Shown here: positions 43,106 through 47,035 of the stretch, piece after piece | How the letters are laid out: each line of letters opens with the position of its first letter | Position numbering within the stretch: position 1 is the first letter of the stretch | Source: Lachnospiraceae bacterium | GTDB taxonomy: Bacteria > Bacillota > Clostridia > Lachnospirales > Lachnospiraceae | Direction: 5' to 3' | Length of the DNA: 64,000 nt | Assembly: GCA_022768745.1 (NCBI GenBank) | Contig: JALELK010000115.1 | Coordinates: 1-64,000 of the forward strand | Notes under the pieces: model-generated | The model's database searches: none | Told to the model about the DNA's origin: nothing | Seen by the model: the letters and a program-made list of their open reading frames with translations, nothing else | Position numbers and translations under genes: made by a program

Positions 43106-43134
43106 TTGACTACCACATATTGTGGTGATAGAAT
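43106..43134 (+). promoter_or_regulatory. nrdD promoter, spacer occupied by an NrdR-like box
   Basis: TTGACT-accacatattgtggtga(17)-TAGAAT. Confidence 0.65.
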
Positions 43135-43160: not shown

Positions 43161-43210
43161 ACACTTGATTGGGTTATCAATATATAGACGAAAAGAAAGG
43201 GACGATTGGA

Positions 43211-45331
43211 TTGGTTAAAGTAGTAAAAAAAGACGGAACATTAGAGGATTTTAATGTACAAAAAGTAGTGGATGCTGTGAACAAATCTGCATGTAGGGTG
43301 CTGATTAATTTTACAGAGGAAGAAGAAAAATTTATCTGTCAGTTTGTAGAAGAAAAAGTAGCAGCCCTTGGAATAGACAGAATTCAGATTGCTCAGATGC
43401 ACAACATCGTAGAGGGAGCATTGGAGAGGGTGAATCCTGTAGTTGCCAAGAGTTACAGAGATTACAGAAATTATAAGCAGGATTTTGTACAAATGCTGGA
43501 TGATGTCTACACAAAGAGCCAGTCCATTATGTATATCGGTGATAAGGAAAATGCAAATACAGACAGTGCCCTTGTTTCCACCAAGAGAAGCTTGATTTTT
43601 AATGAGTTTAACAGAGAATTGTACAAGAAATTCTTCTTGACGACAGAGGAAATCCAGGCCATCCGGGATGGTTATATTTATATTCATGATATGTCTGCAA
43701 GACGAGATACTATGAACTGCTGTCTGTTTAATGTACAGGAAGTTTTGCAGGGTGGTTTTGAGATGGGAAATATCTGGTATAACGAGCCAAAGACGTTGGA
43801 TGTAGCTTTTGATGTTATCGGAGATATTGTGCTTTCTGCGGCATCTCAGCAGTACGGCGGATTCACTGTGCCTAGTGCAGATTTGATTTTGGAGTCCTAT
43901 GCAGAAAAATCCTACGCAGCCTACGTGGAAAAATATGTTTCCTATGGCTTGTCCAAGGAAAAGGCAGAGGACATTGCGTATAAGGACGTAAAGCGTGATT
44001 TTGAACAGGGATTCCAGGGTTGGGAATACAAGTTTAATACAGTGGCCAGTAGCCGAGGAGATTATCCGTTTATTACCGTAACTGCCGGTACAGGAACTTC
44101 TCGCTTTGCCAAAATGGCAACCATTACCATGTTGGAAGTCCGAATGAAAGGTCAGGGCAAGAAAGGTCATAAGAAACCGGTATTATTCCCGAAGATTGTA
44201 TTTTTGTATGATGAAAATCTTCATGGCCCGGGAAAAGAGCTTGAAGATGTATTTGAGGCAGGAATTGAGTGTTCCAGAAAAACCATGTATCCGGATTGGC
44301 TGAGCCTTACCGGTAAAGGTTACATCGCAAGTATGTATAAGCAATATGGTCAGATTATCAGTCCTATGGGATGTCGTGCCTTCTTATCTCCATGGTATGA
44401 AAGAGGCGGAATGTATCCGGCAGATGACAAGGATACACCGGTATTTGTCGGACGATTTAACATTGGTGCGGTTAGTTTGCACTTGCCAATGATTCTGGCA
44501 AAGGCCAGACAGGAGAGCAAGGATTTCTACGAGGTGCTGGATTACTATCTTGAGTTAATTCGTAGATTACACATTCGTACCTACGCATATTTGGGAGAGA
44601 TGAGAGCATCCACAAACCCATTGGCATATTGCGAAGGTGGATTTTATGGTGGACATTTAAATTACAATGATAAAATCAAACCTATCTTGAAGTCAGCCAC
44701 CGCATCCTTTGGAATTACAGCTTTTAATGAGTTACAGGAGTTGTACAACGGAAAATCTCTGGTGGAAGACGGACAGTTTGCGGTTGAGGTGTTGGAACAT
44801 ATCAATCAAAAAATTGAAGAGTTTAAAAAAGAGGATGGAAATCTTTATGCCATTTACGGTACGCCGGCAGAAAACCTCTGTGGTCTTCAGGTAAAACAGT
44901 TCCGTAAAAAATATGGAATTATTGAAAATGTTTCTGACAGAGAGTATGTAAGTAATAGTTTTCACTGTCACGTGACAGAGGATATCACACCAATTCAGAA
45001 ACAGGATTTAGAGTATCGTTTCTGGGAACTTTCAAATGGTGGTAAGATTCAGTATGTAAAGTATCCAATCAGCTACAATAAGGAGGCAGTCAAGACTCTG
45101 GTGCGCAGAGCTATGGATATGGGATTTTACGAAGGGGTAAACCTTTCTTTAGCATACTGTGATGATTGCGGACATGAAGAACTGGAAATGGATGTCTGTC
45201 CGGTTTGCGGAAGCAAAAACCTTACGAAAATTGAGAGAATGAATGGGTATCTGTCTTATTCAAGAGTGAAGGGAGATACTCGATTGAATGATGCCAAAAT
45301 GGCAGAAATATCTGAAAGAAAGAGTATGTAG
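43211..45331 (+). CDS. nrdD: Anaerobic ribonucleoside-triphosphate reductase (ORF extends upstream to 43169)
   Basis: ATP-cone VVKKDGTLEDFNVQKVVDAVNKS, CDDCG...CPVCGS zinc site, C-terminal glycyl-radical-type MNGYL; TTG 43211 likely start, upstream TTG is too close to operator. Confidence 0.95.
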   Translation: MVKVVKKDGTLEDFNVQKVVDAVNKSACRVLINFTEEEEKFICQFVEEKVAALGIDRIQIAQMHNIVEGALERVNPVVAKSYRDYRNYKQDFVQMLDDVYTKSQSIMYIGDKENANTDSALVSTKRSLIFNEFNRELYKKFFLTTEEIQAIRDGYIYIHDMSARRDTMNCCLFNVQEVLQGGFEMGNIWYNEPKTLDVAFDVIGDIVLSAASQQYGGFTVPSADLILESYAEKSYAAYVEKYVSYGLSKEKAEDIAYKDVKRDFEQGFQGWEYKFNTVASSRGDYPFITVTAGTGTSRFAKMATITMLEVRMKGQGKKGHKKPVLFPKIVFLYDENLHGPGKELEDVFEAGIECSRKTMYPDWLSLTGKGYIASMYKQYGQIISPMGCRAFLSPWYERGGMYPADDKDTPVFVGRFNIGAVSLHLPMILAKARQESKDFYEVLDYYLELIRRLHIRTYAYLGEMRASTNPLAYCEGGFYGGHLNYNDKIKPILKSATASFGITAFNELQELYNGKSLVEDGQFAVEVLEHINQKIEEFKKEDGNLYAIYGTPAENLCGLQVKQFRKKYGIIENVSDREYVSNSFHCHVTEDITPIQKQDLEYRFWELSNGGKIQYVKYPISYNKEAVKTLVRRAMDMGFYEGVNLSLAYCDDCGHEELEMDVCPVCGSKNLTKIERMNGYLSYSRVKGDTRLNDAKMAEISERKSM

Positions 45332-45345
45332 ATTAGGTGGAGTAA

Positions 45346-45837
45346 ATGCGTTATCATAATATAACAAAGGATGATATGTTAAACGGAGATGGCCTTCGGG
45401 TGGTTTTGTGGGTTGCCGGATGTGATCACTGTTGTAAGGAATGTCAAAATCCCATCACATGGGACCCGAATGGTGGCTTGGAATTTGACCAGGGAGCAAA
45501 GGATGAGCTGTTTGAAGCTCTGGATAAGGATTACATTTCCGGAATTACTTTCAGCGGAGGAGATCCACTTTATTTTGGCAATCGTCCGGATGTGGAGAAA
45601 CTGGCTGAGGAAGTTCACCGGAGATTTCCACAGAAAACCATCTGGATGTACACCGGATTCACCTATGAAGCTATATCAGATTTGAAGGTGTTGGATTACG
45701 TGGATGTTTTGGTGGATGGTGAATTTGTTGTTGAACAAAAGAATACACAACTCTATTGGAGAGGAAGTGCCAATCAAAGGGTGATTGATGTTAAGGCATC
45801 AAAAAAAGCCGGTGAAGTGATTCTACACTGTGAATAG
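45346..45837 (+). CDS. nrdG: Anaerobic ribonucleotide reductase activating protein
   Basis: NGDGLRVVLWVAGCDHCCKECQNPITWD, GITFSGGDPL. Confidence 0.96.
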   Translation: MRYHNITKDDMLNGDGLRVVLWVAGCDHCCKECQNPITWDPNGGLEFDQGAKDELFEALDKDYISGITFSGGDPLYFGNRPDVEKLAEEVHRRFPQKTIWMYTGFTYEAISDLKVLDYVDVLVDGEFVVEQKNTQLYWRGSANQRVIDVKASKKAGEVILHCE

Positions 45838-45846
45838 GAGAGTAAA

Positions 45847-46284
45847 ATGATATTACAGATAAAAAAATTGACCGATACTGCGAAAATCCCGGAGAGAGGC
45901 AGTTCTATGGCTGCGGGTTATGATCTTTTTGCAGACATTAAAGATGAGGTAATCATTAAACCTCACACCACTTTTATGGTGGGAACAGGAGTGGCTGTTG
46001 CAATTCCGGAGGGGTATTTCGGCGGTATTTATGCCAGAAGCGGATTGTCAGCAAAAGAAGGTCTTCGTCCGGCAAATTGTACCGGAGTGGTAGATGCAGA
46101 TTATCGGGGAGAAATAAAGGTTGCATTACACAATGATTCTGAGGAGAAAAGAACCATTGCCCCGGGACAGAAAATCGCCCAGATGGTGGTGAGTCCATTT
46201 TTAAGTGTTGAATTTTCCCAGGTGGAGGAATTGGACGACACAGACAGGGGCGAAGGAGGATTTGGTTCCACAGGTAAAATGTAG
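45847..46284 (+). CDS. dut: dUTP diphosphatase
   Basis: GSSMAAGYDLFAD, ARSGLSAKEGL, GVVDADYRGEIKV, RGEGGFGSTGK. Confidence 0.96.
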   Translation: MILQIKKLTDTAKIPERGSSMAAGYDLFADIKDEVIIKPHTTFMVGTGVAVAIPEGYFGGIYARSGLSAKEGLRPANCTGVVDADYRGEIKVALHNDSEEKRTIAPGQKIAQMVVSPFLSVEFSQVEELDDTDRGEGGFGSTGKM

Positions 46285-46295
46285 GAGGTATTTTT

Positions 46296-46961
46296 ATGGG
46301 AGAGAAATTACAAAGTATCAGAGACAGAATGGTAAAGTTTTACGCAGCAAATGATAACGCTATCGTGTTAAATGCTGTGCCGGGACACTTTGCTACCAGT
46401 TCATCACATATTAATTTTTATATTGATATGACCAGTTTAAAGACCAGAGCCAAGGATGCCAGAGAGGTGGCAAGAGCGATCAAAAACAAAATGCTTCACG
46501 AGGTTTCCTCTGTAGATACCATTGTATGTATGGACGGAACAGAAGTAATTGGCGGATTTTTGGCAGAGGAGTTGGAGAAGAGTCATTTTGCTACTAACAA
46601 CAAACATGAGACAGTATACATTGTTTCACCGGAGGTAAACAGCATCAATCAGCTTCTGTTTCGTGAAAACACCAGACCTGCCATCGAGGGGAAAGATGTG
46701 TTACTACTTTTGGCAACTATGACCACCGGAGATACTGTTCGCAGAAGTCTGGAATGTATTGAGTATTATGGCGGAAATATTGTGGGTGTGTCTCCTATTT
46801 TCGGAACTATGGATAAGGTGGGGGATACAAAAGTATTTCCACTGTTTACAGCCAATGATTTACCGGGATATGCTACTTATACTCCTCATGAATGTCCGTA
46901 TTGTAAGAAGGGCATTCCGATTGAGGCGATGGTAAATGGATTTGGTTATTCAAAATTATAA
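46296..46961 (+). CDS. Phosphoribosyltransferase-like protein (OPRT-like) with altered PRPP loop
   Basis: PRTase-type order ending in CPYCKKGIPIEA; PRPP-loop position reads DVLLLLATMTTGDTVRRS. Confidence 0.75.
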   Translation: MGEKLQSIRDRMVKFYAANDNAIVLNAVPGHFATSSSHINFYIDMTSLKTRAKDAREVARAIKNKMLHEVSSVDTIVCMDGTEVIGGFLAEELEKSHFATNNKHETVYIVSPEVNSINQLLFRENTRPAIEGKDVLLLLATMTTGDTVRRSLECIEYYGGNIVGVSPIFGTMDKVGDTKVFPLFTANDLPGYATYTPHECPYCKKGIPIEAMVNGFGYSKL

Positions 46962-47035
46962 TTAGAAAAAGCAAAAGTTTGCGCCGGACGTAAGTTAGGC
47001 GCATTCTTTTCGGTTAATTGAGAGGTTTATTTTTT

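Follow-up and report, generated by a model that had tools for sequence, protein, structure and literature searches.

In type I phosphoribosyltransferases (PRTases), the acidic pair of the PRPP loop holds the ribose diol of PRPP and the PPi loop holds the pyrophosphate, while the TTG element holds the 5'-phosphate and the hood holds the base. PRTase folds are also used in regulation, as in PyrR, PurR and GfcR. The described system nearest to the protein family characterized here, by profile, tree and structure, is the Thermus-type orotate phosphoribosyltransferase (OPRT; TIGR01367; Helicobacter pylori HP1257, PDB 4PAW). The two have in common the fold, an N-terminal GHF...H hood, the TTG loop and a C-terminal CPxCK. 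In contrast to the enzyme, the family lacks the acidic pair, the GPAxGG and ERxxGxMxLRRxF loops are replaced, and the KPGSR tail has become NGYGYSKL. TIGR01367 was the closest profile (E 1.8e-14), but the score of 53.8 bits was far below the curated cutoff of 150.25. With the canonical PyrE of the same genome (TIGR00336) the family protein shares the type I PRTase fold; that PyrE keeps the motif IEDVTTSG and scores 153.9 bits, as compared with 17.5 bits for the family protein (P0001). Unlike PyrR, PurR and GfcR, the family protein lacks an additional domain for binding DNA or RNA, and its scores against the regulator profiles are near noise (GfcR, 13.7 of 300 bits; PyrR, 11.5 of 138). No described paralog or pseudoenzyme matching the family was found in the open-access literature searched.

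The gene was analysed in a window of 64,000 nucleotides from a Lachnospiraceae bacterium. An earlier note had described an open reading frame at 46296-46961 with the PRPP loop DVLLLLATMTTGDTVRRS, an intact TTG, a C-terminal CPYCKKG and the gene order nrdD-nrdG-dut-ORF, all of which was found as described. The parts of the gene are as follows.

46296..46961, + strand: family gene, encoding a 221-aa predicted PRTase-fold pseudoenzyme, apparently derived from Thermus-type PyrE
46383..46427, + strand: N-terminal hood segment GHFATSSSHINFYID (residues 30-44), nearly invariant
46515..46553, + strand: PPi-loop region DTIVCMDGTEVIG (residues 74-86), canonical GPAxGG replaced
46605..46670, + strand: flexible-loop region (residues 104-125), family signature H..Y..PE.....Q..FR.N
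46710..46715, + strand: codons of L139-A140, where the PRPP motif has lost its acidic pair, placed by alignment with canonical EDVVTTG and by counts over 122 members
46722..46736, + strand: 5'-phosphate loop TTGDT (residues 143-147), family-wide by the 122-member counts
46893..46904, + strand: CPYC (residues 200-203), an inheritance from Thermus-type PyrE

The PRTase alignment covers most of the 221 residues, with no other domain and no additional N-terminal DNA-binding domain, and no recognizable output domain was found in the protein. The score against the PF00156 profile (16.2 bits) was below the Pfam gathering score of 26.3. The AF2 model had a mean pLDDT of 92.3, and its top Foldseek matches were PRTases or PRTase-fold proteins, indicating a predicted PRTase fold; the best match to a solved structure was HP1257 (E 1.7e-9, TM 0.61).

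The register of the PRPP loop was set by aligning the family with ten PyrE-like proteins from other Clostridia, found with the family profile and all intact in the acidic motif. The Thermus-type PyrE motif against the family loop reads KVLIVEDVVTTGGS; KVLIVEDVVTTGGSV aligns with DVLLLLATMTTGDTV, so that the E and D of PyrE correspond to L139 (TTG, 46710-46712) and A140 (GCA, 46713-46715). The loss of the acidic pair claimed in the earlier note is thus upheld, but the positions given there, A140-T141 (46713-46718), lie one residue too far downstream: by the alignment, T141 (ACT, 46716-46718) is a hydrophobic 'hh' position and not an acidic one. LA replaces ED in the family protein, and both acids of hhhh(D/E)(D/E)hhTTG were present in none of the 122 members counted. 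Position 139 was acidic in 0/122 relatives, being L, M, V, A, I, S or C, and position 140 was Ala in 99/122 and Asp in 8/122. An acidic pair at a shifted position, which the earlier note had held would count against its reading, was looked for in residues 128-152 of the 122 members, and no two adjacent Asp or Glu residues were found anywhere in that stretch. The family-wide loss rules out chance, a one-off mutation or an assembly error as its cause. The eight members that keep Asp at position 140 (L131, L134, L135, L018, L074, L054, L063 and L064) could reveal whether the loss was stepwise.

Other parts of the old active site were rewritten or kept. In the alignment, the flexible loop ERxxGxMxLRRxF has become PEVNSINQLLFREN, and MDGTEVIGG stands in place of the PPi loop GPAxGG/A. 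The TTGxT element is well retained (T143 in 108/122, T144 in 113/122, G145 in 122/122 and T147 in 120/122), and C200 and C203 are present in all 122 members. The family signature consists of GHFATxxSHINYYID, DTIVCMDGTEVIGA, YVVxPExN...Q..FRxN, CPxCK and NGYGYSKL. The CPYCKKG segment, singled out earlier as a special CxxC feature, is a standard C-terminal part of Thermus-type PyrE: in the alignment it pairs with CPMCKNG...KPGSR of the canonical set, and it also matches HP1257; it is therefore inherited. Twenty of the 32 invariant residues fall in the four classical ligand loops, which make up 27% of the length (hypergeometric p 5e-6, only indicative because the loops were defined from the alignment after conservation had been viewed).

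The family is widespread. Matches occurred in 140/299 sampled Lachnospiraceae genomes, about half; all five genomes of the genus carry a single copy; and several other families of the class Clostridia have matches, whose scores are clearly separated from those of true PyrE. In named genomes 586 relatives were confirmed, those kept being mostly from Lachnospiraceae. In the tree the family formed a single clade (support 100/100) with Thermus-type PyrE as nearest relatives, and this uncurated family probably arose a single time from a Thermus-type PyrE. The stem of the clade measured 3.75 changes per site, as compared with a median end branch of 0.26, a pattern that fits a single episode of rapid change followed by constraint. 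The dN/dS ratio against genus members was about 0.05 with dS near saturation, indicating purifying selection. Additional copies were observed: a tandem of two family genes, each about 40% identical to the query, lies at G088:C1:1615250-1616534 (in L179), and second copies occur in G084, G085, G037 and G050. Some copies contain an in-frame stop (L098:2381-3028, L034 and G251:C158:1039-1692), possibly through decay or assembly error. Phage-borne copies were not confirmed in viral contigs.

In sequence, the family has lost the acidic pair and changed the PPi loop and flexible loop, but has kept the N-terminal hood and the 5'-phosphate loop. Loss of the acidic pair and PPi loop with retention of TTG and the hood suggests that a nucleotide monophosphate, and not PRPP, is bound. 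The family protein is very probably not a PRPP-dependent OPRT, and the former active site probably serves a conserved ligand function. From the retained motifs, a (deoxy)pyrimidine nucleotide carrying a 5'-phosphate would be the ligand; given the dut and nrd neighbourhood described below, the protein would help to control the deoxynucleotide pool as an accessory or sensor, and in the window's lineage it may partner the dUTPase encoded in the same operon. With moderate confidence, we favour the explanation that the protein is a pseudoenzyme with the PRTase fold, which would bind a (deoxy)pyrimidine nucleotide and act as accessory or sensor in control of the dNTP pool. Within this explanation, ligand sensing is plausible, and a role in dUTP/dNTP handling is proposed tentatively.

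The gene neighbourhood bears on that last part. The features upstream and downstream of the family gene are as follows.

43106..43134, + strand: promoter-like TTGACT-17-TAGAAT with TG, upstream of nrdD, in the same arrangement in L044, L045 and L047
43145..43160, + strand: NrdR-box-like site ACACAATATATGGTGC, 14/16 to the consensus, conserved in L044, L045 and L047
43175..43190, + strand: second NrdR-like site, spaced 30 bp from its tandem partner, tandem score 24
43169..45331, + strand: nrdD, a mechanically called ORF whose real start is probably near 43213 (PF13597 E 4.5e-112, ATP-cone)
45346..45837, + strand: nrdG-like activase of anaerobic ribonucleotide reductase (Fer4_12 E 1.5e-46, weak Radical_SAM in Pfam, position after nrdD)
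45847..46284, + strand: dut, encoding dUTPase, with a gap of 11 bp before the family gene (PF00692 E 9.3e-32, TIGR00576 161.6 bits)
46980..47003, + strand: hairpin with T-rich tail, a possible terminator before gyrB/parE (fold z -3.0; absent from a simple terminator scan)

In the window, nrdD, nrdG, dut and the family gene are separated by gaps of 14, 9 and 11 bp. A dut gene lies immediately upstream on the same strand in 47/172 loci (30/140 when non-redundant). In all dut-linked loci the family protein shares at least 52% identity with that of the window, and these loci come from a subset of Lachnospiraceae; the other 125 loci have mostly unrelated neighbours. Both flanks of the pair vary, with gpsA, nrdG, plsY, parC and others upstream of dut, and an ABC ATPase, gyrB/parE, scpA and others downstream of the family gene (neighbours other than nrdD, nrdG and dut being named from sequence reading and not profile-tested). 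The linked dUTPase itself belongs to either of two subfamilies that are 29% mutually identical (18 and 29 loci). The divergent subfamily, which takes the slot of the standard dUTPase at L069:9555-9992, L073:9452-9892 and 27 further loci, matched PF00692 at E 1e-12 and scored 76.7 bits with TIGR00576, below cutoff. Retention of the pair while the flanks and the dUTPase subfamily change argues for coupling. The linkage is confined to one subset, so the general function of the family may not concern dUTP. The tie to (d)NTP metabolism put forward in the earlier note is thus moderately supported, and in part: dut stands as the stable partner within that subset, but nrdDG is linked only in the genus and a few near relatives, and falls as a stable partner.

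That the dut linkage is neutral synteny, the gene having some housekeeping role unrelated to nucleotides, is an alternative that we consider rather unlikely. Outside one clade, the neighbours vary in most loci, and one ancestral linkage is enough to explain every dut-linked locus; neutrality accords poorly with a pair that was kept despite changes on both sides and a differing dUTPase subfamily.

Upstream of nrdD, the NrdR-like boxes stand in tandem in the window, L044, L045 and L047, 30 to 32 bp apart. NrdR boxes have a consensus, and tandem boxes of the NrdR regulon lie about 31 bp apart at the promoter. The tandem score was 24 in the window, L044 and L045 and 21 in L047; among the 3000 segments of the null, the 99th percentile was 21 and the highest score 27. 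The boxes are matches to a consensus pattern, single matches in the window being near chance, and promoter-like sites in the window also occur in number at chance level; it is the tandem spacing and positional conservation that point to putative NrdR control here. Similar boxes lie over the dut promoter in L048 and L015, where nrdDG is not adjacent. General NrdR control of the family was rejected, since the 99% null threshold was reached upstream of dut in 2/47 cases and upstream of the gene in 5/172. No defence system was matched by PADLOC, and a search for regulatory RNA near the family gene in 20 loci gave unrelated matches only.

Set against an accessory or sensor for deoxypyrimidine nucleotides, the main rival is a new enzyme activity: the protein would still be a transferase or N-glycosidase, acting on a different sugar phosphate or base through new catalytic residues, for which the invariant or near-invariant D80/E83, H104, P112-E113, Q119 and R123 are candidates. 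Many invariant polar residues do lie inside the old active-site loops, and Foldseek also matched 7F06, named adenine phosphopsicosyltransferase, which indicates that the fold can change its sugar. On the other hand, the PRPP-handling parts, PPi loop and acidic pair, are gone and no member with a known activity was found in the family, and we regard this as unlikely.

Involvement in UMP synthesis is less likely still. The genome check proposed in the earlier note revealed a separate canonical pyrE in the window's genome (G000 C79:15064-15621, with the TIGR00336 score and motif given above), and canonical pyrE exceeded the curated cutoff in 76/80 carriers. The four exceptions were G124, in which the match is cut by a contig edge, G462, which has a Thermus-type pyrE, G483 and G490. 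G483 is 99% complete and has no pyrE or pyrF, no convincing pyrD and no pyrB over cutoff (only a transcarbamoylase homologue at 122 bits), and its family member is intact, which indicates that in this genome the family protein has a role outside UMP synthesis. Together with the separate pyrE and a distinct clade without the acidic pair, this supports well the earlier view of a repurposed protein that is not a working PyrE. As to PyrR, a replacement role was rejected, there being no anticorrelation (PyrR over cutoff in 1/40 carriers vs 2/40 non-carriers).

G483, which keeps the gene without PyrE or its pathway, also speaks against the protein being a partner of canonical PyrE that has lost catalysis, or its regulatory subunit, and no recurrent linkage to pyr genes was seen among the loci read; despite the common fold, the co-occurrence with canonical pyrE in most carriers and the precedent of PRPP synthetase pseudo-subunits, which favour it, this idea is very improbable. 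That the protein is a working, unusual OPRT is barely credible: the f9 genomes (G490 and relatives) do have pyrB, pyrC, pyrD and pyrF and no pyrE by TIGR00336 (G490) or PF00156, but they carry another OPRT-like protein, the family proteins they encode have degenerated further, with SSG in place of TTG, and the window's genome has its own pyrE. That other protein, a divergent one of 288 aa with the motif HIADLITSA, to which PF00156 is blind, is encoded directly after pyrK-pyrD or one gene further on (L239:7311-8177, L240:6644-7510 and L241:5990-6859; PRK00455 E 7e-15 for the L240 copy) and is probably the missing PyrE of these Clostridia.

Proteins of this family resemble PyrE and occur in Clostridia, including many gut bacteria, where they are liable to be annotated as orotate phosphoribosyltransferase; pathway reconstructions and pyrE-based genetics could confuse them with PyrE. 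The most specific form of the pseudoenzyme explanation, a former PyrE that senses a deoxypyrimidine nucleotide (such as dUMP or dUTP) and works with dUTPase, a new type of regulator of the dNTP pool in Clostridia, is offered as a speculation that we think doubtful. If the link to dUTPase is functional, a nucleotide-binding pseudoenzyme would join the factors that control dUTP, with consequences for mutation and DNA repair.
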